Below are positions 11,512 through 48,004 of a DNA stretch of 64,000 bases, piece by piece; the stretch's first letter is position 1, and every line of letters begins with the position of its first letter. Position numbers and translations under genes: made by a program. The stretch comes from Hydractinia symbiolongicarpus (taxonomy: Eukaryota; Cnidaria; Hydrozoa; Anthoathecata; Hydractiniidae), in contig NC_079881.1 in NCBI RefSeq assembly GCF_029227915.1, forward strand, positions 12,375,501 through 12,439,500, given 5' to 3'. The notes under the pieces were generated by a model that saw nothing but the letters and a program-made list of their open reading frames with translations, was not told the DNA's origin and did no database searches.

Positions 11512-14322
11512 TTAGTTCATAACATAGTCCTCGAAACGAGATGGTTGCTGACGTTCTCTTGTAGATCGACGAACCGGGGACGGATAAGGCGGTGACGAGG
11601 AGGCGGTCGGTACATCCAAACGGTTGTCAGCAGCTGGCTGGTCAGGACCAAAGTATGTGTCACTATCATGCGATGCTTGTGGAGGCGGAGTGTTGTCGGT
11701 CGGATTTGAGAGGGGTGGTGTAGATCCCTGTGGCAAGTCTTGAGTGGAGCGGCTGTCATCGATGGGTTGTTCCACAGCTTTAGAGGTGATTGGCGGCCTA
11801 GAGGCTGGTGGGATTGATCGCCAGGCGTTCATAAGCTGGTCCAATGGTAAGTTTGGCCGAACAGGTGTGAATTTCCGAAGGAATTTACGGTTACGTAGTG
11901 TCACCCGTCTTGATCCATCAATTCGAACCACATATTGGTCATGCGGGCGAACTTCGATAATCGAGCCGGTTTTGTCCCATCGAAGAGGATGGAGACCAGT
12001 CTGATTTTGGATTCGCACCTGATCTCCCACACAAAGTGGGTTCAACTGCTTAGAATACAGAGACAGTCTCTCAGCGATGGCCATATGACGACGCCTTAGT
12101 GCCTTTTCGCGATCTTCAAGGACACTCACCCACGTAGGGTGGGGGAGGTATTTACTTGGCAAGATGGGTACGAAATCCTTGATGGGTCGTCCAAACAAAC
12201 ATATTGCAGGTGATAACTTGGTGGTTTGATTTGGCGTGTTTCTATATTGTAGCATGGCTTTTTGAAATGCGTCTGTGTCAAGGTTCCCATCAGAACAAAC
12301 ATTATCCGTTAGCATACGTTTTACTGTTTTCACACCAACTTCAGCTCGACAATTGCTGTGTGGATACGCAACTGATGATATTCGGTGGTGGACACCCCAG
12401 TTACGCAGGAAAGTGGACGTGGAGGATGCACACAGCTCAGGTCCACCGTCTGAGGAGAATTCGTCCGGTATACCATAGGTTACAAATGTTCGGCGGAGGC
12501 AGTCGATTAATCCTTTCGCACCATTTCTAGCCTCCTCAACAATCGGCCAATTGGAGTATCGATCAATGCAGACAAGATAGTTGTGGCCGGCATAATGAAA
12601 GAAGTCGCCACAGATTTGCTGAAACGGATAATCAGGATATTGCAGAGGCTTCGGCGGAGCTGATGGTTGCGATGGAGCAATACGGTCGCAGCTTTCACAT
12701 CCCTGACGTAACTTTACGATATCTGCAGATAGACCTGGCCAGAAGATGGAAGATTCGGCCCTCAAGTTCATCGATGTGACACCATGGTGTGCGGCATGAT
12801 GGCTGGATAGTATGTTAGGCCGTAGGCATGGAGGTATGATGACCCTGTCCTTGTAAAGTGCGACTCCATCAACAGTGGACAATTGATCGCGATATTGATG
12901 ATATACCTGCAATTTCTGGGGCCACTCCGTCTGGTGTTCAGGTAAGCCAGACTCAATGGTATGAACTAGATCTCGCATTTCGACGTTGGCTGTAGTTGCT
13001 TGACGAACATCCTCCCAGGTTGTGGATTTAAGGGAATTCAATGCCGATGAAGCAGCTATAAACGAAATGTCGTCAGGTAATACCAGTTGTTCCGGAGACG
13101 GGTCGCCAGATGGATGGCGCGACAGAGCATCTGGAACTCGATTCTTCAGGCCAGGAATATGTTGCATGGTGAAACGATACCTCAGTGTGCGTTCTTTAAG
13201 ATTCCGCAATCGGTTGTTAGGTATGTCTTCCAGGGATCTGTTTGTAAAGAGTCCGAGCAACGGCTTATGATCGACTGCAATTATTAGGTCCTTGCAACCC
13301 AAAACAAAATGTCGACACTTGTCCAACGCATGTGCAACGGCTAATGCCTCACCTTCAATTGGTGCATAACGGGACTCAGCTGGGTGAGTGAACCGACTGC
13401 CAACTAACACAACCTTCCAACCACTACGACAACAGAAGAGAGATTTCCCTTCACATAGGCAATGTTTTTGGAGCAGCCAAAAACCAACTCCGTTCTTTGA
13501 CCAGTCTGTTGCTATACATGTGAGCCTTGACTTGTCAAATATGCGTACACCTTCCTCAATCTCACTTAAGATTTTTGATTTAGAGGCAGCAAATATTTCG
13601 TCGAGTTCATCGCTCCATTGAAACGAAGACTGAGGTTTCAGCAATTCGCGTAGGGGTAGCATTTTGTCCGTCATACTGAATGTGTATGCTACTTGGTTGA
13701 CCAGACCGAACCAGGAACGGATGTCTGTTATATTTTGCGGTACAGGAAAATCGGCAATGGCTCGCATAAGGCTTGGTGCTGGACGGACATTGGTAGGGGT
13801 AACTTCAAACCCAGCAAACTCCACCACATCATGGGCAAATTTGAACTTTGAGGGATTTTGAATAATTCCGTTTTTCCCGCAAGTGTCCAACCATTTGCAA
13901 GTGTGGAAGAAACATTTCTCGATATCGGTAGCCCATAAAAGAGAGTCATCGGTTACCTTGATTTTGTCGGGAAAGTCTGATACAATGGCGTCAAACCTTC
14001 GAGAATAACCATCTCCAGATGTAATGTAGCCCTGAGGTAGGGTACAATACCTGTAGCGACCCCACGGTGTGATGTAAGTTGTATAGTGGCGATCTTCCTT
14101 GCAAAGAGGAACGCTATGGTACCCATTCCAAGCATCTGATACGGTCTTCTTGGTGTGGTGAGGTACCGTGCGAACCTGATGGAATGGTGACTGTGTGTGG
14201 TGAGTTTCTCTGGTAGCGTGTTTATTAAGAGCCTGAAAGTCAACACAGCGTCTCGGTTTGCCACTCTTTTTTGGACACACTACCATTCTGTGGCACCATG
14301 TCACGGGTTCACCAATGGGCAC
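11512..14322 (-). CDS. pol: Ty3 pol: reverse transcriptase, RNase H, integrase
   Basis: 936 codons, uninterrupted. RT occupies roughly residues 1-230, with DAWNGYHSVP near 63 and the catalytic pair in VTDDSLL at 125-126. RNase H follows, with ATDWSKNGVG, EGEALAVAHAL and VDHKPLLGL. The integrase has an HHCC finger (HHAAHHG then CESC), then catalytic acidic residues in ICGDFF, SSDGGPE and AEVGVK. The C-terminus is Pro/Ser-rich. The frame opens on GTG and has no upstream ATG of its own. Its first residues continue the RT region at the end of the gag frame in the -1 phase, so expression would need a frameshift, or one base has been lost. Confidence 0.93.
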   Translation of the reverse strand: MPIGEPVTWCHRMVVCPKKSGKPRRCVDFQALNKHATRETHHTQSPFHQVRTVPHHTKKTVSDAWNGYHSVPLCKEDRHYTTYITPWGRYRYCTLPQGYITSGDGYSRRFDAIVSDFPDKIKVTDDSLLWATDIEKCFFHTCKWLDTCGKNGIIQNPSKFKFAHDVVEFAGFEVTPTNVRPAPSLMRAIADFPVPQNITDIRSWFGLVNQVAYTFSMTDKMLPLRELLKPQSSFQWSDELDEIFAASKSKILSEIEEGVRIFDKSRLTCIATDWSKNGVGFWLLQKHCLCEGKSLFCCRSGWKVVLVGSRFTHPAESRYAPIEGEALAVAHALDKCRHFVLGCKDLIIAVDHKPLLGLFTNRSLEDIPNNRLRNLKERTLRYRFTMQHIPGLKNRVPDALSRHPSGDPSPEQLVLPDDISFIAASSALNSLKSTTWEDVRQATTANVEMRDLVHTIESGLPEHQTEWPQKLQVYHQYRDQLSTVDGVALYKDRVIIPPCLRPNILSSHHAAHHGVTSMNLRAESSIFWPGLSADIVKLRQGCESCDRIAPSQPSAPPKPLQYPDYPFQQICGDFFHYAGHNYLVCIDRYSNWPIVEEARNGAKGLIDCLRRTFVTYGIPDEFSSDGGPELCASSTSTFLRNWGVHHRISSVAYPHSNCRAEVGVKTVKRMLTDNVCSDGNLDTDAFQKAMLQYRNTPNQTTKLSPAICLFGRPIKDFVPILPSKYLPHPTWVSVLEDREKALRRRHMAIAERLSLYSKQLNPLCVGDQVRIQNQTGLHPLRWDKTGSIIEVRPHDQYVVRIDGSRRVTLRNRKFLRKFTPVRPNLPLDQLMNAWRSIPPASRPPITSKAVEQPIDDSRSTQDLPQGSTPPLSNPTDNTPPPQASHDSDTYFGPDQPAADNRLDVPTASSSPPYPSPVRRSTRERQQPSRFEDYVMN

Positions 14323-16160
14323 TGGTTCAAAACTCCAAGAGCTACATCGCGGTCTAGGTCGGCTTTTACTTGTTCTTGCCAGTGGATCGGTACAGGTATT
14401 GGCGAATGATGTGTAGTCGGCTCAGCATTCTCATCGATCATCAGCTTCATGGGTGGCCCGGACATCAATGGCAGAGGTTGATGTTCGCATACATTGAAGG
14501 TGCTGCTTTTATAATAGTTAAGAAGCCATTGCTCCAATCTTTCCCGGTTCTCCTCTGTTGGTGGATATGGCAGTTCGGTAGGAAGTGGTGGCGGTGCTGA
14601 TCGTTTTGGACATGAACACTCATTAGTTGGATCAGGTACAGTGATGGTATTCGCACCAATCATAGGGAATTCAGGTGATACAATGCCAAGATCTACACAG
14701 GCACTCTTACTGAGGTAAAACTTGTCAGAGTCGTTAGTCACATACGTAAACTGCTTCGTTTCTTGTAGTGACCCGTGGCAATTGATACCAGCGATGCGGA
14801 TGACGATAGCCCCTAATATTTTGATAGATTGTCCATTGGCGGCGTCCATTTTCATTCGGACCGGGATGAGATCACTTTTAGAAAGGTTGAATCGCTGAAT
14901 CCATTTGTAACCAATGAGACAACTTTGGCAGCCGGTGTCTGCCATTGCCGGTATGGTGATAGTTGACTCGTTAGTACCATGTGGAAATTTAAAACCCAGC
15001 TCGCTGTAGTAATCTTCCACGATACGCACGGACAAATCGAGAAACGGTTGTGGAGGAGATGGACTTTTCTTCCAAACATCTTTAGATTTGTTGTGGCAGT
15101 GGTGATCAACATGATCCGCAGATGCTGTGTTCAATGAGCATAGTGAGTTGAATATCGTGCTGGATTCCTCGACAACTGCAGCATTATCAGGCTTTCTCTC
15201 CTTGTTTTTTCGATCTTTGCTCCTACACACGTGATCAAAATGATGCAGACGTTGGCAATTCCCACACTTGTGATTATATGCAGGACATGTGGATTGACGG
15301 GATCGTGATGCGCTAGTGCTGTGGCAGTTTGTTCCGCAGTACCCACATTTTGAACCAGAATCGCGTTTGGTATCACGGTTGGTGTCATTGTCTTCTTTTG
15401 GCTTATTGAAGGAGTCTCGTTTACCCCTTCTGTACTGGCTATGGACGGCACCAGCCTGGTGGTGATCGATGAGGCGTGTTGCAGAACGTTTCCCTGCTTC
15501 CTTTGTTTCAACGAATTTGAGCACTTCTTCCAAACACATGTCCTGGTTCGTATGTCCAAGAAGCTCCAGCTGAATATCAGGGTCGGAGATACCACGACCA
15601 AGAACATCACATAATATTTGTTCGGTATAGTCCACGTCGTGGCTGCACGAGGGGCAGGGAATAACATATTTACATACACCAGCTTGACCTTTCAATCTAG
15701 CCCCAAACGATCTTATTGGCTCATCAGGATCTTGATTCATATTGTTTAAGGCAACTCGTGCAACCATAACGTTTTCCTCCCTGACAGCGAGTGATTTCAT
15801 TGAAGCAAGGATGACATCCTCACTTTTTTCGGCCAACATGCCAGTGGTGGATCGGGTGAGGTCTCTGCGCAACTGCTCGTCACAGCATTCAAGGAGTTGG
15901 AGAACAGCATCTCTACCTGTGATTTTGGTAGCGGTCTTGTACTCAATCCAGCGGGTCAGGAAGTATTTCCAATCCTCAGCGGTTCCGGCTAAAGTAACAG
16001 TGGGACGTCTCACTCGTTCAATCTTGGCCGTGGGTGATACCGATGTAGGTTGATTCGAATGCGTGGTAGCATGGGTTGTCAGTAGTGCAGCAATGATGAC
16101 AGCATCGAGGTCTGGCGTGGTGTAGGTGCAGCCAGGCACTGGACAACTAACTGATGGCAT
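14301..16160 (-). CDS. gag: Ty3 gag-protease polyprotein, running into RT
   Basis: 619 residues from the ATG at 16160; an upstream in-frame GTG at 16175 is not favoured. The N-terminus has a C2H2-like finger (CPVPGC...H...H), then a capsid-like helical region and paired zinc knuckles around residue 272 (CGYC, then CGNC...H...C). An aspartic protease site ADTGC lies near residue 407 with a following LGAIVIRIAG strand. The last ~60 residues are the RT lead-in (PIPVPIHWQEQVKADL). The frame ends after LGVL and the protein continues in the -1 frame as pol. The switch point sits inside conserved RT sequence at a GTTTTG run, which is not a classical slippery heptamer. Confidence 0.9.
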   Translation of the reverse strand: MPSVSCPVPGCTYTTPDLDAVIIAALLTTHATTHSNQPTSVSPTAKIERVRRPTVTLAGTAEDWKYFLTRWIEYKTATKITGRDAVLQLLECCDEQLRRDLTRSTTGMLAEKSEDVILASMKSLAVREENVMVARVALNNMNQDPDEPIRSFGARLKGQAGVCKYVIPCPSCSHDVDYTEQILCDVLGRGISDPDIQLELLGHTNQDMCLEEVLKFVETKEAGKRSATRLIDHHQAGAVHSQYRRGKRDSFNKPKEDNDTNRDTKRDSGSKCGYCGTNCHSTSASRSRQSTCPAYNHKCGNCQRLHHFDHVCRSKDRKNKERKPDNAAVVEESSTIFNSLCSLNTASADHVDHHCHNKSKDVWKKSPSPPQPFLDLSVRIVEDYYSELGFKFPHGTNESTITIPAMADTGCQSCLIGYKWIQRFNLSKSDLIPVRMKMDAANGQSIKILGAIVIRIAGINCHGSLQETKQFTYVTNDSDKFYLSKSACVDLGIVSPEFPMIGANTITVPDPTNECSCPKRSAPPPLPTELPYPPTEENRERLEQWLLNYYKSSTFNVCEHQPLPLMSGPPMKLMIDENAEPTTHHSPIPVPIHWQEQVKADLDRDVALGVLNQCPLVNP

Positions 16161-16198
16161 GTCGAGGCGTTTCACTTGAAGATTAAAAGATTCAACAT

Positions 16199-16300
16199 AG
16201 ATAGGAATGAAACCATTTGCTTATTTATTAGTATGCATTGTTGAATCTGAAAACAAACAATAAACAATAAATACAACAGTTCAATGTTCATTACTCTCTA
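16199..16300 (-). repeat. 5' LTR of the Ty3 element
   Basis: Matches the 3' LTR at every base compared. Target duplication TTAAAT follows at 16301-16306. The primer-binding site should lie just below 16199; I could not assign it to a tRNA. Confidence 0.9.
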
Positions 16301-18058: not shown

Positions 18059-18064
18059 GTTTTA

Positions 18065-18355
18065 TACGGTGGCCCATATATGACATTTTTAATAAAACAT
18101 TTTTTTTAATTCCTAACTGGCGGCGCTAGTTATGCCGCCAGTTATAACTGTCGCCGCTAGTTATGCCGCTAGTTATAACTGTCGCCGCTAGTTATAACTG
18201 TCGCCGCTAGTTACGCCGCCAGATATAACTGTCGCCGCCAGTTATAACTGTCGCCGCTAGTTATAACTGTCGCCGCTAGTTATGCCGCCAGTTATAACTG
18301 TCGCCGCTAGTTATGCCGCCAGTTATAACTGTCGGCGCTAGTTATGTCGCAAGTT
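18065..18355. repeat. Left terminal inverted repeat and subterminal array
   Basis: After the ~52-bp terminal segment, about 240 bp are iterations of GTTATAACTGTCGCCGCTA alternating with GTTATGCCGCCA words. The unit contains the palindrome AGTTATAACT. The array ends 17 bp before the HECT start codon, so it may also act as that gene's promoter. Confidence 0.9.
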
Positions 18356-18371
18356 ATGAAAAGACCATGCG

Positions 18372-21300
18372 ATGGAGTGCAAACTCTCCCCCTCTGATGA
18401 AACAAAGATGGCGGCTCACGTGGATAAGCACGAAATGCCTTCTTTAGCAGTATCTCCTCCTGATAATGATATAACTGAACAATGTGATCACTTGGAGAGT
18501 GTTAATCGAGTAAGTTTTGATAACGTTGATTGATACGACAAATAAGAAAAATATTTTGTGCGCTAGGCAAAAATAATGCTTTACCAGTTTATATTTAGCT
18601 ACTAGCTAGGTGTGTAGCTAGCTACGCTCTTTAGTAGAGCTATATTGGCTATTTATTCAATTCTCATACCTTTTTTAGCTAGCTATTTACCCGAAGTGAT
18701 ACCATAGTTTTTTTAATTTTGGAATAAACGCTTTTTTAGGTTTGTGCACATTTGGAATCAAGGAAAGTCAAGAAAGAAGTCATAGAAAAGTTTAGGGCAA
18801 ATAGTGTTAGTGCTTGTTTTTAGCTATAGTTCTCATATTCATATGTGCAGTTAGCTGTATTAATAAGATCCAAATACTCTTTAAGTTAAATTGTGTTCCT
18901 TGAAGAAGACGAAGTGACTCTATATATATAAATTGTGTATGCTTTGTTTAGATGGATGAGGGTGCAATTTGGAATTGCACAGATGTCGATCTTGAAAATC
19001 TTGGCTTGATAGAACGTGGACACATCATATCTGTGAAAGGATTCTGTATGCCTATGGGGAAAAACAAAGATAAAGAAGTATTAATAAATAGCATCCGAGC
19101 TACAGGAAAAGAAAGACTAGAGCCTTCTTTGAAAAAACGTCGTAACTTTAGCACGAAAAATGTGACCTTTGGTTGGATGCATTTTGATGCAGTAAAAAAT
19201 CGTTATGTTTCGGTACGTTTATCGAAAGGAGGAGGCACAAGGAATACATATTTTTCAAATGACAGTGGAATGACTGATTTGTTAGAATTTGGGAAAACTT
19301 TATTTTTTCCAAATGGCTGTTCTATTCATGGGCATTTAAGTGACATGGTAGTACATCTAGGGAATTATAAGGGTGACATTATTATGGATGAAGACTTCAA
19401 GCTTGCAAATTATATATACGATAACAAACTTTCAAAGACAAGACTGTACTTGTTGACTAAAGTAAAAAATAAAATACAAGCTCTTTTGGAGGAACTAAGA
19501 AGCCCTATTATACCTGTGACTGATGACAGTGATAACAGTGATCATGAAGAGAAGACAGTAATTGATATAGATAAAACAACATCAGAACGCACCAGGAGAG
19601 AAACCAGCAGGTGATTTTAATTTAGTTGAGATTTTTTTAAATTAATTAAAACTGAATGGATGTATATATACATTGATTTGATGAATTTTACATTTTTAAG
19701 ATTTTGTGATTTTTATGTAAACTTGTGGTCTAGGCCTATCAGATTTCGTCATTCAATTGGTTCTCCAAATCTATCATCCTTAACATCATCGCTTTCCACT
19801 ACAGAAGACAAAGAGCAATCGGTACTATGTTATGAATTAAATAACTGTTTCTTTGCATTACTGTGCACAATTAATGTCTAAAAAATTTATTTAATCATTT
19901 ATTTATTATAACTTTAGAGCAGTGGTGGTCTGATTGGAAGTACAGAAGATAGAGAACGGCTCAGACAAGAAATAAATGATGCCTATCAGCAGTCATTAGA
20001 AATTGATCAGAGGAAAGAGAATCAGAAAGAACAGGAAGAAATAAAGAATCAAAGGCAAGCAGATTTAAAGGAAAGAAGGTTGTCATTTGTTCTACCCGAA
20101 CCAGGTGTGGATGAAGATCATGTTGTAATTAGTGTACGGCACCCTCACATTGGCAACAAAGTGAGATTATTTAGAACTGGCTCCAAAATGCTAGATGTGT
20201 ACAACTGGGTAGGTAGCCTTCACGAAATACCAGAACATTTCCAATTGATAGACTATAGTGCAAACAACATTGTAGAACCAGACCAGGAGGTATGTTCCTT
20301 AGCTTTAAATATGAATGAAGTTACAAATCCATTTATTTCTGCTGTACAAAAACCCAATGGTGAAAAAGAAACTGAAGAGCGTGTAGAAATTACGCAAGGT
20401 GAATGTATGACTCATTTACAAAAGGTGGAAAATTGCAGGAAAATTGCACTTGACAAATTGATACTCCAAGGAAGACATATAACTGTTTCATTTGATAATG
20501 TTTTTGGGGACTTAATTTCGCATTATCGCAAAATTGATATACTTTCAGAACGGATTAATTTGTCATTTTCTGAAGACTTCGGGGTTGGTGATGGTGCAAC
20601 CAAAGATGTGTATGCAAAATGTTTTGATGAATTTTATAAACAGTGTGAAGGAGAGCGTCAAAAAGTACCAATAGCAACTATGGACGAAAATGACCTTGAA
20701 ACCTTTGGTAAATTAATAACTCATGCCTTTATCCAACATGGACTTTTTCCATTACAAATTTCCAAGGCATCGATCGAATATTCTCTTTATGGAAATGTTG
20801 ATGATAAAGACCTTGTTTCGACTTTCCTGTTATTTTTACCGGAAAATGAACGTGCTTTGTTTGAAAAATTTAGTGAAGTTCAACCTGTTCTTGATATTCT
20901 AACTGAGTATAAAATCTTTGATTCACCAAATGCTTCCAATATACTGGACTTGTGTAAGAAAGCAGCAAATGTTGCTCTTATACGTCTACCATGTTTTGGG
21001 GTAAATTCAATTGTAAAAGGAATGGGAAAGTTTTGGTCTGGATTTTCGCGTGAAATGTTCCATTCCATATATTCATGCATCGTACCGAATCCAGAGCGTG
21101 TGATAAATTCTTTATTAGTAAACGAATTGCAGCAAACAGAGGCCAAAATTGTAACATGGTTGCATAGATTTATCAGAAATTGTACACCTGCGCAACTGTT
21201 TTCGTTTGTTCGTTTCGTCACTGGTTCCCCTAACCTGTGGCCAGATGATATCATTAAAGTTGAGTTTGTGGATCAGGCAAAACAATATATCAGACCAACT

Positions 21301-21423
21301 ACACAAACCTGTTTTAAAATTTTGCATTTACCAAGGCAATATGTGTCATACACAGAACTATCATCGAACATTATTGACAATATGGCTTTTGAAGAAAACT
21401 GGATAATTAGTGACAAATTGTGA
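18372..21423 (+). CDS. Transposon-borne HECT-domain E3 ubiquitin ligase (SAM/UIM/UBX-like regions)
   Basis: Exons 18372-18509, 18740-18805, 18952-19610, 19734-19821 and 19918-21423 have GT-AG borders and join in frame to 818 residues. Residues ~47-95 look SAM-like (VKKEVIEKFRANS, DVDLENLGL). ~329-349 is a UIM-like helix (INDAYQQSLEID). ~370-435 resembles a UBX fold (HVVISVRHP...FQLIDY). ~505-818 is a HECT domain, short for the family. The C-lobe has the thioester-forming cysteine in QTCFKILHLP at residue 782, followed by a Tyr/Leu-rich end. It would pass ubiquitin from an E2 to substrates; the target is unknown. AATAAA at 21580-21585. Whether the protein serves the element or is captured cargo cannot be seen from sequence. 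Confidence 0.85.
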
Positions 21424-21850
21424 AAGTTTACTTCTGGACCTTTTACAAGTTTTTCTCACCGACTTTTGTAAAGAATTGTGTTTGGAGATTTTTTTATTGT
21501 GTTAAAGATTTTATATTTTGTTGAAAAAGGACTCTGTTATGTTAATATTTAAAGGCACGCAAAAAGTTTTCATTAAAAGAATAAATAATCCGTACAATAT
21601 CTTGTACACATTTTATCAAACAAGAAAATTCAATATTCTTATGCTTTGTTTAATGTTATCAGCTAGAAAAAGTAGCTTTTAAAGGTCTAGCATCACATTT
21701 TCTTGAGTTTCTTCAGTCATTTTAAGTGTTTTACATATATACGTTTGGTTTTTATTACATTTTTATCGTATTTAAGGGAACGTTATACCTTTGTGTGTAT
21801 ATATATATATATATATCTTCTTACTAATTACAGAAACTTCGTTTTATGTT

Positions 21851-23023
21851 TTACAATAAATTATACATTTCTTCTGTAAGTACTTTAAACAGTTCTTTTG
21901 CTTTTTCCGTTGAATTGGGCAAGGTCATCTGTTTTTCATTCATTATTATTGCAAGTAGTTCGGACATTACCTCAGAACACCCAAACAATAATGGCTGCTG
22001 AATATGTATTTCGGCCACTGCAAGGTCGTTAGAATTTACTGAACATTTATAGTCCTCTCCACCATCCCTTTCAGGCAAATGATACAGCACATTAGGACGG
22101 CCGGCAGGACTTTCCGAATTCCTAACTTTGCGTATGCGATGGTTATTCCATAACGAAACAGTCTGATCTAAGTCAGTTTGCAATAACGTGAGATATGAAA
22201 AACGCAGGCAATCTAGGTGGTAATCAATGCTCGTGTCTAGCGTACCTTCGTCACACAAATCTTTAAAGTAATTTATCCAATAGTTACAGCGGTTTTTCCT
22301 GAATTGGCACCACCAAGATTCTATGCGCTGATTTCTAGTGGAAGGACCATATCGAAAGCTTTTTTCACCCGAAGAATCATCTTCGCCATCTCTTCGAAAG
22401 AATCTTTGTATCCCACCGACAACTACATTCTCTGACCCGCGATCAGCTCGAATGCAACGAGAAGTTGATTGCAGGCGCGTGACACACTTTAGGAAATAGG
22501 CAGCAATTATTTTAGGATTATTATTACTTGCGCCGACATTTAGCCATAGTATTTTTCGACTCCAGCCATCAATTGCACCATGGATTGCAAATCCGAATGG
22601 CTTTAACTTGTCATAACCATCCATGTGCCAAACAAAGTTAGGACCACGGGAAAAATATTTCCGTCTTTTAAAACGATGCTTACTTCTTTCCTCAACACCG
22701 GATGGATCCATAGCCTTCATAGCCATGCGCACGGTTTCTCGATCTACGTTGAAGCTATCAGATCGGAGTTTCTGTGTCATTAAACGATACCCAAATCCTT
22801 CCCCTGAGCCAGAAATTTCTCTTTTGATAGCAATCAATACCGAATTTGTAGTGGATGGTTTGTATCGCCTAAACAAATTCATACTTCTTAATACGCGGTT
22901 GAGTTGTCTGATCCCAATGTGCACATCATGTTTTGTAAATAAAAACGTTCTGATTTCTTCATAAGATAATCCATCTAAAAAGTACTGTCTGATCAAGCAC
23001 TTGGTTGATTTACTGATAACCAT
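21851..23023 (-). CDS. IS3EU-like DDE transposase (integrase-core fold)
   Basis: 390 residues from ATG 23023. An acceptor (TTTCAG) ends at 23033 and a matching donor (TTTGGAG then GTAAAA) near 23119 implies a 5' untranslated exon, so the longer frame starting at 23095 is intronic. Residues 1-60 form a helix-turn-helix-like region (LIRQYFLDGLSYEEIRTFL). The catalytic core has D135 (WHMDGYDKL), D194 (IRADRGSEN) and E235 (NQRIESWW), a DD40E arrangement. A C-terminal WNNHRIRKVR...GRPNVLYHLP segment is typical of this integrase-like family in animals. No stop or shift interrupts it. AATAAA on the minus strand at 21751-21756. It would cut and insert the element with 6-bp staggers. Confidence 0.9.
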   Translation of the reverse strand: MVISKSTKCLIRQYFLDGLSYEEIRTFLFTKHDVHIGIRQLNRVLRSMNLFRRYKPSTTNSVLIAIKREISGSGEGFGYRLMTQKLRSDSFNVDRETVRMAMKAMDPSGVEERSKHRFKRRKYFSRGPNFVWHMDGYDKLKPFGFAIHGAIDGWSRKILWLNVGASNNNPKIIAAYFLKCVTRLQSTSRCIRADRGSENVVVGGIQRFFRRDGEDDSSGEKSFRYGPSTRNQRIESWWCQFRKNRCNYWINYFKDLCDEGTLDTSIDYHLDCLRFSYLTLLQTDLDQTVSLWNNHRIRKVRNSESPAGRPNVLYHLPERDGGEDYKCSVNSNDLAVAEIHIQQPLLFGCSEVMSELLAIIMNEKQMTLPNSTEKAKELFKVLTEEMYNLL

Positions 23024-23236
23024 TCCAAGGATCTGAAATTGAAACTCATAATAAGGTATAACTTTTATAACGACCAAGTCGCAACTAAATAGCACGAGAG
23101 TTTAAAATATTGTTTTACCTCCAAAGAATCACCTCTTTACTTGAAGCTTTACTTGAATCAAAAGGCCCCCCACGTTTCCCTTTAGTGTTTACCAGCACTC
23201 GCGCATGCGCCCAAACACAAAATCACGTGGAAGGCG

Positions 23237-23480
23237 TTTAAATGGCGGCATAACTAGCGCCGACAGTTATAACTGGCGGCATAACTAGCGGCGACAGTTA
23301 TAACTGGCGGCATAACTAGCGGCGACAGTTATAACTAGCGGCGACAGTTATAACTGGCGGCGACAGTTATATCTGGCGGCGTAACTAGCGGCGACAGTTA
23401 TAACTGGCGGCATAACTAGCGCCGCCAGTTAGGAATTAAAAAAAATGTTGTATTAAAAATGTCATATATGGGCCACCGTA
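23237..23480. repeat. Right subterminal array and terminal inverted repeat
   Basis: Inverse of the left end: iterations of GGCGACAGTTATAACTGGCG and GGCATAACTAGC, then CCAGTTAGGAATT and the terminal TCATATATGGGCCACCGTA. It lies just upstream of the transposase leader exon, mirroring the left array's place before the HECT gene. Confidence 0.9.
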
Positions 23481-23486
23481 GTTTTA

Positions 23487-30979: not shown

Positions 30980-33900
30980 ATGGATTTATTTGTGGCATTG
31001 GTCATATATACATTGTGTTTTGCTTTAATTTCGATTGGAATTTTGATTGGTAGCAGAAATGAAAAAAGCATTATCATGAAAGTGGGTATTTATGTTCTGA
31101 TGTTTTCAACAAGCATAAGTGCCTGAAAATTTTATGATGTTGTAGAAACTAAAACTGTATTTAACCATATCGAGACAGAAAGGCAGTTTTAATCAATAAA
31201 TTCCCTACATTTTGCCCATATTTACACTACAAAAGAAGAAACAAGAAGCCACTTTAAGCCATTGGGCAATGGCTTAAAGATTTTCGTTAGCAGGATAGAT
31301 GCTATATGATTTACTTCTAGTACAACAAAAACGTGATGCATGTAATGTCTGAAAACAAAGTCAACTAAGGATTTCAGGTAAACACAATGAAAAGTGAAGG
31401 CTCAGGTATCATTTGTATTAAAAAACTGATTTAAAAAAAATTGGAAAACTCAGAAAACTGACGTACATGAATGAAATTACCAATTACCTTATCTGTAACA
31501 GCTAGACAATTTTTTATAAGCAACTTACTTAAACTTAAAAAACAACTGCACAAGTATAAACAGAAGCAACCAAAAATCAAACTCTAAGAAAGAATTCCCT
31601 TCTTACATAAATTATGCATCATAAAATGTTATTGTTGGCTGTGAGATGAACCAAAAATGCAATTGGCCCCTCTCTCTCTCCCCCTCCCCCATGATTAAAT
31701 GCAACTTTTTAAATAAGATGTCTTTTTTTAAATATTATTTGAGATTTACAATATGTTATTTCACATTTTGCGCAATTCTCTGCAAACAATTTGTGGGAGG
31801 AGTACCAATGAATAACAAGTTGGACTTTGTTGGGAATTGTTTACTTTGAATGTGTGTAAATTTTTTCATCTTCTTGAAAAACGATTATCCAGATTTTAAG
31901 GAAGGTCGCGTAAGGTAACAGCAACAAGACTTCCACAACCTTCCTCTTTGTGGACAAAAGTTTTGTGAAAAGTTATTTGTGTAAACTTTAAAATACACTA
32001 AGTTATTGTTAATTAATTTGTAGATTATTAGATTAGATTATAAATGAGTTTCGACGTGACGTTATGATTTTGCATCGAGAAGAGTGGGCATGCGCACAGG
32101 CAAAATATATAAGTAAGTAAGTAACGGGAAGTTTTACCATCCTTAGGGATTCCATCCTAACGGTTGGCTCTTCCTCCCCTCCGACTGTAACTATGTTACA
32201 TTACAAATTCTGCTTTAAACAGAGAGATAATAGTTCAGAAAAAACAACACGCTTTTCCCTAATTTGTTTTCTTTTATGTACCGCTGCTATAATAAAATTT
32301 GTCAAACAAAATGAATGTGATTTTTGAAATACTCACCTGAAATTTGATAGAATGTAAAATCTGCAGGTTCATACAGCAAACAACCTGTTTTTAATTTTGT
32401 CCTAATTGAACTCTGCTTGAAACCGACGTTTATTAGCACAAGTCGAAAATGAAGCGGCGACAGTTATAAGTGTCGAGTCGACAGTTATAAGGCGCGGCGA
32501 CAGTTATAAGTGTCGAGTCGACAGTTATAAGGCGCGGCGACAGTTATAAGTATCAAATCGACAGTTATAACACGCGGCGACAGTTATAATTGTCGCGTCG
32601 ACAGTTATAATTATTAATACAAGGCTCAAAACTGTGTCAAAACATGATAAAAACGACCACAAAAATTTCTACAAATAATATACACGCTTTTTAAGTAACG
32701 TAAGTCATTAAAAGTTAAGAGTTATAAAATAAGTATAAAAATGTATAAATTAGGGGTTAATAAATTAAATATAATAAAAATTAATGTTTTCTACAGAAAT
32801 TCCCTTGTAACACGTTCGGCACCGTCTTTCCGATAAGGAGTTTTTGTAACTGTAAGTTATAAAGCGTTGGCCAAAACTCAGAAGCGTGTTTGTTATTGCA
32901 TATCAATTTCATCAAAATTACATTGTCTTTATACATACTTAGTATAATATTTTTTATGCTTGGATATATGTTAACTTGGCATCTTTGCAGCCACAACAAT
33001 ATCTAACCGAATTGACTCACCCAATCAGTATGTCACCATCATATTTAAAGTTATCCTCCCAAAATCTTGGAATACTATGGGAATTCACAACGATGTACTC
33101 CCGACTTCGAGTAACATTAGTTTGAATTTTGTCATCATAGAACGTTAAACTGAAACACATACAAGCATGCTGGTCTGGACACACACGTCGAGAATTACTT
33201 TCAAAAAATAAAAAAATGTAGCTAAATGTTACTCTTTCCATGGCGACCACTTGAGTTTAAGGAGAAATAAAATATATTCTAAGCATGTCACCTATGGGCC
33301 ACGGTAGGATACACAGCAGCAAAATAAATTTGCAGTATTTAGCGTGCAACACAGCGCACGCTTTCCAATTTAAATTTTTTTTAATTACTGTTAGTATGAG
33401 TGTGATATGTAAAACGTAGACATCTAAAAAACATTGGAAGATATTTTTTAGGGTTTATTAGCACTGATTTACAAACAAGTATTTAGAGAACAAAAATTGG
33501 AAGTGTTTTGAGTCTATCATGTACTTCTATGTTTTTTCTTCGACTTTCGCCATTTAGAATATTTTTAAAAATGATTGTGATTCCCAACAGTTACATTTTG
33601 TCAAAAGTATGCTATCTTCTTAGTTTTTCAAAAAACATTGTGTTAAATGGCTGAAAATTTATGGAGGAACTGCAACATTGTATATCATGTATATTATTGA
33701 TTACTTTTAGGTTATGCGTTCCATTATACAGAAAATATCAAATCTTCTTCCTCAACAATCGCAAGCTGTTTTAACATCTGTTTTGGAGTACTTATTTTAT
33801 ACCAGGTGAGATCATATTTTACCTCACTTTCATTTTTTGTTCAGCTCATATTTCAGGTCTGGCTCGTGTTTCATATTTGTAATAAATTTGACGTGGTAAG

Positions 33901-42914: not shown

Positions 42915-43765
42915 TGTAGTTACGTTGGCCCATATTTGCCACTATTGTAGAGCAGCAGAAAAAGATCACTACAGCGCAGTAAAAAGTACTCTACTGCACA
43001 GTAGTCGTAAATCTATTGCGCAGTAGTCACAGTGCAGACAAAACACTTCGTTACGTCAATTATACGAAACAGCAGAGAGCTTGATAACAAGGAAGATATT
43101 TTTACATAAATGCGAAAGAAATTTTATATAATTGGTTTGTAAATGTTCATGAAAACTAAATATTATTGTTTCAAACACCAAAACAAATTGTTTCATGTGT
43201 TTCGAATGCGTTTAGATGCGATATGGATGTCACAGTAGAGAAAGTAAGGTTTATCTGTTTATAATGATAATCTGATTATGTTATTATTAACGGAAGCCAA
43301 ACTTTTAATGTCAAATATTTTATATTCTTCTTGATGTACACTCACATTTCAAAAATCTTGTCAAACATTATGGAATGCCGGACAAATTGTGTAAAAACTT
43401 CAAAGTCCCGTATTATACTGCGTAATAGTTGAAGTTCTACTGCACAATAGTCAATGTCCTACTGCGCAGTGGACCAAATACTACTGCGCAGTAGAACATG
43501 TGCTACTGCGCAGTAGAACTTTGGCTACTTCGCAGTAAAACTTTGACTAGTGCACTAGTGCACTAACTATTCTATTGTTCTTTGTTGCTTACTGCGTAGT
43601 AGACGCGTTTTCACTGCGCAGTAGAACGTTGACAACTGCACAGTGAAAACTCGTCTACTGCGCAGTAGTCACAGTTTTACTGCGCAGTAGAAATGTAACT
43701 ACTGCGCAGTAGAAATTAAATTCTACTGCTCAACATTAATTGGCAGATAGGGGCTTCCGTGTAGT
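42915..43765. mobile_element. Non-autonomous IS3EU-like element with palindrome arrays
   Basis: The left end TACGTTGGCCCATATTTGCC starts at 42921. The right end is a diverged inverse (TTGGCAGATAGGGGCTTCCG). TGTAGT flanks both sides (42915-42920, 43760-43765), a candidate 6-bp target duplication. The termini resemble TACGGTGGCCCATATATGA of the 18-23 kb element. Subterminal arrays of a CTACTGCGCAGTAG palindrome lie at 42963-43035 and 43410-43740. No long frame. The right border is uncertain by a few bases. Confidence 0.65.
43410..43740. repeat. Array of CTACTGCGCAGTAG palindromes
   Basis: More than ten exact or one-to-two-base variants of the 14-bp palindrome, about 20-30 bp apart and separated by unlike spacers such as AACATGTG and AACTTTGG. 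A smaller cluster lies at 42963-43035. Regular palindromes with non-conserved spacers suggest protein-binding sites more than simple tandem duplication. Confidence 0.88.
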
Positions 43766-45042: not shown

Positions 45043-48004
45043 TCAAATAGCAGCCGGAAAGCCAGGCATTGGAAATTTTAATGAGAACTCCTCCACACGT
45101 GTTCTAATTTCGGCAATCTCATTTTGCCATTTCTCTTTATTTAACACAGCTTTGAATTCTCGCAACAGACACTGCTTGTCGGTAAGACCAAACGATCTTT
45201 CAATTTTCTGTGTTAGTTTAATACAATCATCCATGAAACCTGCAACGATCTGCATATCAACTTCTTTAAAATTTCGAGTTGTCAATGCAGGTAATCCAAC
45301 TCGAATTCCACCCGGACGGAAAGCGCTTTTATCGCCCGGAACAGTATTTCGGTTAACTAAAGAGAAGCAAAACTTGGACCAAATGCCAAATATTTTATCC
45401 GGAAATTCGTTAGCGCGTATAACGGGAAATTGCCCAATATGTAGACCGTTTAATTCAGCTTTTACTTAAAAACTCTTGAAAACTGTAAGTACCAAGTACC
45501 TGCGCCATACACAGTGCAATTATAAACGTCAAAGCCGGTTTGCATTTCGTTTAGTACGAAGGAAGAACATCGATGTTTTTGTGACGTCATTTCAGTGATG
45601 CAAACGGAAAATACGTACCACTTATACTTGCCAATTCCATAATGGTATCCACTTTTGCACCGTCGATGCCAAAACTTCGAACGTCGAGCAAGAACATGTG
45701 CGTATCCGTTCCATCAGTCACAATTTTGTAATCTTAAAACAATTCATTCAAATTAATGATGAATTATAATTTGCAAACGAAAGAGCTGTAACAAAGACTT
45801 GACTCCGAAATTAGTTAAAGTAGCGCATGTACTTTCGTAGTTTTATTTATTTTGAAAATTACATTGTAACAGAAAAATTAATCGCAAAACAATTGCAAAC
45901 ACCAGACACAAAAAATCAATTATATTGAGGTGGATTCCCCTACAACGAGCGGCGGAATACAAAAAACAACATAGTTTAGGCAGAAAAAAAAATCATTTTT
46001 CTAAAATATCATGGAAATTAATGCTGCCAATGGCGTTTGAAAATTGAACAGGTTATAACCTATATTTGTTAGCTAATCAATGTTTATACTCCATCACTGT
46101 TGTTTGTTCTATTAAATTTCTTCATTCTAAATCAATTCATGCAGCTTACATGGTGGCCAAAATGTGTTAATGGGACAACTAGCATTACCTTTTGTTTGAA
46201 GAGCAGTGGAAAGAGCTTTTGCGTTCTTTATAATTTGGACAGCATATTCCTTGAATTCTGGTAACATGGCCTGTTTTAATGCCACAGCGACTCCTGCGAT
46301 GTTGTTATTGTGAGGACCACCTTAAAAAAAAAATAAAGACGAAAATGAATTACTGAAACAGTTTGAAAAGCCATCTTCACCGCCAGAAAAAAAAGTTCGT
46401 GGGTTAAAAAAACGTAAAATATTTGCGATTTCACTGCTGACGAAACAAAATAAACATTGCGAGAATTAATTTTCGCGTTTATGTAAAATTTCCGTTTTTT
46501 ATTGTACAATGTCATAACATCCCTAAAATATTGTTTTAAACAAAATTAAATTCAAATAACAGAAAATCCAACCAATTAAAATTCGCATATAGAAGCCCGA
46601 TCAACAGACTTGGAGTGGGAATTAAATTTTTACTTTGACACTGGTGATAAATTTAATAATGGAAATCAATAACCTTGCAAGGCTGGAAAAACTGCTCCGT
46701 CGATTTTCTGTTCAAAATCATATTTAACTGGGTTTCCTTGCTTGTCAACCGACTTTTCACCAACGCGATAGAAAATCATCCCAGATCTTGAGCCACGCAA
46801 ACTTTTGTGTGTCGTTGTTGTTACGACGTCGCAAAATTCAAACGGACTTGGTATTGCACCAGCAGCAATCAATCCACTGTAGTGAGCAATGTCAGCCATT
46901 AAAATAGCACCCACCTCCTTGCAAATAGAACGAAAGCGCTCATAATCAATAAGACGAGAGTAAGCGCTCGCACCAGCGATTATTAACTTCGGTTTAAATA
47001 GCTTGGCTGTTTCCAGCAGTTTGTCGTAATCGATAAGTCCTGTAGCTGGATCAACCTTGTAAGGCATTGATTCAAAGAATATAGACGAAGCGGAAATTCG
47101 TTTCTTCTCTGTCATGTAACCATGAGTTAGATGACCACCATCTGGTAAATCTAAACCCATGATGCGGTCGTGAGGTTGTAACAACCCAGTATAAACTGCA
47201 AAATTTGCAGGTGAACCAGAATAGGGTTGAACATTCACACCCCACTTATTGTCGTCCAACCTAAATGAATTTTAATGGATGCCTTGCGCTAGTAGTTTAT
47301 AATTTACGTAAGGTAAAAATATACAGGCCTCAAAATATACAAAAATATACAGAACGACTTCTGCATATAGACATAATCATATTCTCTGTAAAAAAGGATA
47401 ATAAATAAATTCCATAAGGTATTTGCTTCAGGAATGGAGAAGTTGAAATATCCCTAGTCCAAAAATACTTGATTTTTTTTTAAAGCTTTAAAAATATAGG
47501 TTTTAAACAAATACAAATTTATACAGTAAGAGATCTACAAATTAAACGCATTTTTGTAAGCATGGGGTGATTTAGCTGCAACTCAACTATACTTCGGTCT
47601 GAGCCTGAATACATGATTATGTTATGATTATTTTAAACCAAATTTTAGAGACGCAAGCAATTGTTTTTCTTATTTAAATACTAACAAAAATTGACAAAAG
47701 AAGATTTCATTTATAAATAGACCATTATGGAAAATTCTCACCCAAAAGCTTTTAAAGCTCTTTCCTTGCACAAAATTTCCATTTCATCAATGAATTGATT
47801 TCCACCATAATAGCGAGCAAGTGCTTTTCCCTCAGAATATTTATTGGTGAAGCACGAACCTAAACATTCCAAAACTGCCCGACTTGTAAAATTTTCTGAT
47901 GCAATCATCTCCAAGCCACTACGTTGTCGGTGATCTTCCTTCTTCAAGATCTCATACATTTCTGGATCATTGGTTGACAGTGCTTCTTCCAAATATGCTG
48001 CCAT
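45043..48004 (-). CDS. SHMT1: Serine hydroxymethyltransferase, cytosolic type
   Basis: Five exons on the minus strand: 48004-47742, 47260-46674, 46320-46189, 45732-45619 and 45356-45043. All have GT-AG borders and join in frame to 469 residues (family about 470-485). It converts serine and tetrahydrofolate to glycine and methylene-tetrahydrofolate with PLP. Visible signatures: [15 protein letters not shown] and [20 protein letters not shown] near the N-terminus, [15 protein letters not shown], and [12 protein letters not shown]. The PLP lysine is in [10 protein letters not shown] (residue 240). Also [18 protein letters not shown], and a C-terminal [10 protein letters not shown]. The N-terminus starts directly in the enzyme with no mitochondrial presequence, so the cytosolic form is inferred; a mitochondrial isoform from an unseen upstream exon cannot be excluded. 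Confidence 0.96.

Follow-up and report, generated by a model that had tools for sequence, protein, structure and literature searches.

A complete transposon with a HECT gene

The genome of the colonial hydroid Hydractinia symbiolongicarpus contains a complete transposon that carries, beside its transposase gene, a second gene for a HECT-fold protein. We consider it probable that this is an IS3EU transposon, autonomous and recently moved, whose two genes converge and whose HECT protein selection has retained as an accessory factor. The element occupies positions 18065–23480 (5,416 bp) of the analysed window, the whole 64-kb stretch of DNA within which all coordinates are given, and has the following boundaries.

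18059–18064, no strand: left target-site duplication (TSD), GTTTTA, by direct sequence reading
18065–18350, + strand: left terminal inverted repeat (TIR), starting TACGGTGGCCC, with subterminal tandem repeats (GTTATAACTGTCGCCGC), by TIR alignment
23245–23480, − strand: right TIR, without one 50-bp unit relative to the left, by TIR alignment
23481–23486, no strand: right TSD, GTTTTA, by direct sequence reading

The original prediction described a 6-bp duplication and near-identical inverted ends, and both are borne out: GTTTTA flanks the element on both sides, and the TIRs (left 286 bp, right 236 bp) are identical at 234 of 236 aligned bases, with a 50-bp block of subterminal tandem repeats found in the left TIR only. 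The outer 27 bases are the same at both ends; searched with up to three mismatches, they gave just 2 matches across the window and 0 in 100 shuffles. Both TIRs are CpG-rich, with observed/expected ratios of 1.65 and 1.59 versus 0.78 in the element body. Because the two TIRs are so alike we infer a recent insertion, and the sequence suggests a complete, very young DNA transposon. Within the 64-kb window, a search for an empty site (the joined flanks lacking the element) returned self-matches and short matches of 13–20 bases. P0001 and P0002 were each listed on one contig in the protein search, a hint of low copy number and not a count.

The transposase and IS3EU membership

21851–23023, − strand: transposase, 390 amino acids, PF24764 (open frame 23023–21851; Pfam E 1.6e-32)
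22621–22619, 22444–22442 and 22321–22319, − strand: transposase DDE residues D135, D194 and E235
21751–21756, − strand: transposase-gene AATAAA, by sequence reading (complement on the + strand)

An intact DDE transposase had also been proposed, and the 390-residue frame is open, matches PF24764 and contains D135, D194 and E235. The IS3 and IS481 models score 29.7 and 24.6 bits against it, under their cut-offs, and searching PDB sequences with a profile of the transposase gave no match. An HHCC motif is absent (the first 118 residues hold a single Cys), and D135, the first catalytic Asp, lies within the 100–300 residues from the N terminus seen in IS3EU. The available text of PMC10045372 gives IS3EU elements TA..TA termini and usually a 6-bp TSD, and that of PMC12730594 gives fungal IS3EU families TAYGG..CCRTA ends. 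The Hydractinia termini, TACGG..CCGTA, fit both descriptions and the TSD has the same length; as in IS3EU/GingerRoot elements, going by these texts, the DDE transposase is IS3/IS481-related and lacks an HHCC zinc finger. With ends, TSD length, terminal sequence and transposase core all in agreement, assignment to IS3EU, as first suggested, is supported at the level of sequence.

Other repeats share the window. A second IS3EU-like end, TACCGTGGCCCATAGGTGACA, at 33280–33306 (− strand) has 3 mismatches in 21 to the end of the element; a search from position 20000 on gave it no left partner bearing a matching duplication. Tandem repeats (GCGGCGACAGTTATAA..) at 32453–32616 are 71–88% identical, in pieces, to the subterminal repeats of the element and are perhaps the decayed end of a related one. 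At 42921–43761 lies a putative non-autonomous IS3EU-like element that spans about 840 bp, with left end TACGTTGGCCCATATTTGCCA (3 mismatches in 21), a weaker right end (6 mismatches) and numerous CTACTGCGCAGTAG palindromes inside; a clean duplication was not found around it. Two long frames at 11512–16220 (− strand), lying some 2 kb to the left of the element, resemble Gypsy-type retrotransposon gag and pol, and a frame at 46666–47271 (− strand) resembles a portion of the host gene for serine hydroxymethyltransferase.

The HECT gene and its protein

18372–18509, + strand: exon 1, ATG at 18372; P0002 begins at the ATG at 18408
18740–18805, + strand: exon 2, 22 codons, missing from isoform X2
18952–19610, + strand: exon 3, GGGTR domain, from the gene model
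19734–19821, + strand: exon 4, from the gene model and P0002
19918–21423, + strand: exon 5, with coiled coil, UBX-type domain, HECT domain and stop
20104–20328, + strand: UBX-type domain (P0002 residues 346–420), profile/sequence match
20461–21408, + strand: HECT domain (P0002 residues 465–780), profile/fold match
21310–21312, + strand: codon of catalytic Cys748 (P0002 numbering), by alignment
21580–21585, + strand: HECT-gene AATAAA, by sequence reading

The five-exon HECT gene proved intact, as originally claimed: its introns are GT..AG, the modelled product has 818 amino acids, and the public prediction P0002 agrees with the model from Met13 onward, minus the 22 residues of exon 2. The start codon may be at 18372 or 18408, and the name of P0002 indicates annotation with isoforms. 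Also as claimed, the two genes are convergent and each has its own AATAAA poly(A) signal, at 21580 (+) and 21751 (minus strand), about 170 bp apart. Their start codons lie 22 bp (HECT) and 222 bp (transposase) internal to the near-identical TIRs, so both promoters are probably within the TIRs. In P0131 and P0132 the protein starts resemble a translated intron end immediately before the first residue of exon 3, and by our own reading this border therefore seems conserved. The exon 4 (19734–19821) stretch RPIRFRHSIGSP precedes the GLIGSTEDR stretch (19918–20000) in the window protein, and in P0131 and P0133 its equivalent comes after that of GLIGSTEDR: the two segments appear to have changed order.

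The window protein has the N- and C-lobe fold of HECT domains, and Cys748 is kept in all nine proteins that reach this position among 13 aligned, supporting a HECT-fold cargo protein with a catalytic Cys. FAF1 matches the UBX-type region at 1.6e-07 (profile) and 4e-06 (with P0007 as query); the UBX-type piece of the window protein used alone as a query gave no match, and Pfam UBX appears in 2 of 13 family members, at best with 20.3 bits, below the cut-off of 21. The FPR loop is the p97 contact motif of UBX domains. In the alignment this loop of FAF1 is replaced by LPK in P0007 and by SAN in the window protein, which makes p97 recruitment doubtful and weakens a p97-recruiting reading of the domain. 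That exon 2 and the first part of exon 3 look SAM-like remained an impression, the window piece having no Pfam match; its equivalent in P0008 gave a weak, unrelated Pfam match and nothing in a PDB search. For the GGGTR domain, Pfam searches returned no family. Outside the window, a GGGTR-type stretch is found at the N terminus of the protein kinase P0134 (46% over 7% of the query, E 2.8e-5), and the domain may thus be present with other enzymes too.

Relatives and co-occurrence of the two genes

The first HECT search returned nine proteins, P0002 among them, and the second (profile A1) returned six, among them P0002 and the kinase P0134; these searches scored just the 7,986 and 7,989 candidates with most shared words, from which family frequency is not inferable. 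Closest among those scored was P0133, with 66% identity across 491 aligned residues, followed by P0131 (40%) and P0132 (39%), and across this 39–66% range the frames are open and the Cys is kept. Fish relatives are annotated proteins (P0005, P0006 and P0008). As a control for openness, exon 5 was randomly mutated: at 64% identity it acquired a mean of 10.1 stops (at least 3) and at 40% a mean of 16.7 (at least 8), with 0 of 200 sequences open in either case. Databases list open frames, so the argument is biased and covers the lineages leading to those copies, not every copy.

Transposase relatives above threshold numbered 1,682 against few HECT relatives, a weak argument either way because of the candidate limit on the HECT searches. 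We compared the longest-contig sizes of 13 proteins (12 HECT relatives and kinase P0134, with the window's own excluded) with those of 118 transposases. P0132 (HECT) and P0051 (transposase), both from JGI, gave the only exact match, at 6,594 bp. About 0.09 such matches are expected by chance over all sources; JGI contributes P0132 alone among the 13 and six of the transposases, for a rough chance of 0.001. The window's own two proteins likewise list equal contig sizes, as expected. From equal size alone, P0051 and P0132 seem to be a second transposase/HECT pair on one contig. If they do belong to one element, its HECT protein would be more diverged from that of the window (39% identity) than its transposase (49%; DDE core 59%).

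Viral contigs searched with P0001, P0132, P0051, A3 and A4 contained no relative. Among genome contigs, A3 found two loci with related transposases, L001 and L002, each under 4 kb, in which tblastn with both window proteins returned transposase matches and no HECT match. These IS3EU-like transposase matches (L001 1716–2585, L002 1991–2934) lie in contigs under bacterial bins (Myxococcales and a Cycloclasticus sponge symbiont), probably as eukaryotic contamination.

A possible role for the ligase and competing explanations

In the mechanism that we favour, the transposase would bind the terminal and subterminal repeats, excise the element and join it to a target staggered by 6 bp. With both promoters probably in the TIRs, HECT protein and transposase would be made together. 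The HECT protein would accept ubiquitin on Cys748 from an E2 before handing it to a substrate chosen by the N-terminal GGGTR domain and the FAF1-like coiled-coil/UBX-type region. Our leading but tentative candidate for that substrate class is a nuclear factor of the host by which the element is silenced or held in check; the transposase, or the transposase–DNA complex left after strand transfer, comes next and is more doubtful. The original prediction, too, suggested that the ligase could degrade host restriction factors or tune transposase levels. A host silencing factor is our first guess because fungal IS3EU elements offer a precedent in their TET/JBP and alpha-kinase cargo, as described in the available text of PMC12730594, where the authors consider escape from methylation-based silencing likely for TET/JBP.

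The ligase might instead be directed at the element's own machinery, ubiquitylating the transposase or the complex that follows strand transfer and so limiting copy number or clearing the site for repair. The action of ClpX on the phage Mu transpososome is a comparable case of clearing a transposase–DNA complex. We raise this alternative because of Bao et al.; a part for the ubiquitin pathway in transposition was proposed in 2010 (available text of PMC2836005). Probable co-expression from matching TIRs and the FAF1-like coiled coil and UBX-type region would suit it, but with SAN in place of the FPR loop making p97 recruitment doubtful, we regard it as rather unlikely.

Selection is absent from a scenario in which a host HECT gene was caught by chance between the ends of one copy and does nothing for the element. 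One copy has been seen, the short loci L001 and L002 hold transposase relatives without a HECT match, and the TIRs are so young that the intactness of a single copy shows nothing. Such a passenger is nevertheless improbable given the equal contig sizes of P0051 and P0132 and the stop-free P0133 at 66% identity; the apparent P0051/P0132 pair, with relatives that are open and keep the Cys at 39–66% identity, argues in favour of a real HECT role. It is very improbable that the gene serves the host, as a cellular HECT gene or a domesticated element gene merely located inside the element: annotation with isoforms and the related HECT proteins annotated in fish would fit, but the near-identical ends and perfect TSD indicate that the gene can still move, or could do so until recently. 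Returning to a selected accessory factor, we propose, tentatively and below an even chance, that an animal IS3EU lineage has kept, through deep divergence, a multi-domain ubiquitin ligase of its own (GGGTR, FAF1-like coiled coil/UBX-type and HECT) that is dedicated to counteracting silencing or to transposition.

Comparison with known systems

Cargo genes are already known in IS3EU, and a HECT ligase as cargo appears to be new: a literature search, Repbase excluded, found no transposon-encoded HECT protein and no HECT cargo in IS3EU, and a record in Repbase only is possible. Whereas the Hydractinia element carries a HECT gene, fungal IS3EU elements carry TET/JBP and alpha-kinase genes, and of these the alpha-kinase gene shares with the HECT gene an orientation opposite to the transposase (available text of PMC12730594). 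Ginger1 elements also combine an integrase-like transposase with a ubiquitin/SUMO-pathway domain, OTU or Ulp1, but according to the available text of PMC2836005 these proteases are fused to the transposase, unlike the separate ligase gene in Hydractinia. Ginger1 TSDs are 4 bp versus 6 bp here.

The window protein shares the HECT fold and catalytic Cys with the E3 ligases HUWE1 and UBR5, but identity is about 15%, it has an N-terminal GGGTR domain and FAF1-like region, and its gene lies in a transposon. With FAF1 it shares a coiled coil, a PPEP-like motif and a UBX-type domain; it differs in that SAN replaces the FPR loop and a HECT domain follows, and UBX matches in its relatives fall below the Pfam cut-off.

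Transposon-borne erasers are known for ubiquitin and SUMO (OTU, Ulp1) and for DNA methylation (TET/JBP). Because this copy is intact and Hydractinia is kept in laboratories, the 2010 suggestion of a ubiquitin-pathway role is directly testable. With a ubiquitin ligase of its own, a complete young transposon would bring the writing side of the ubiquitin system under the control of a mobile element, which may turn cellular protein tagging to its own advantage. If the proposed role is true, the element would be the transposon counterpart of viral ubiquitin-ligase hijacking, and on the writing side it would partner the Ulp1/OTU erasers that other transposons carry.
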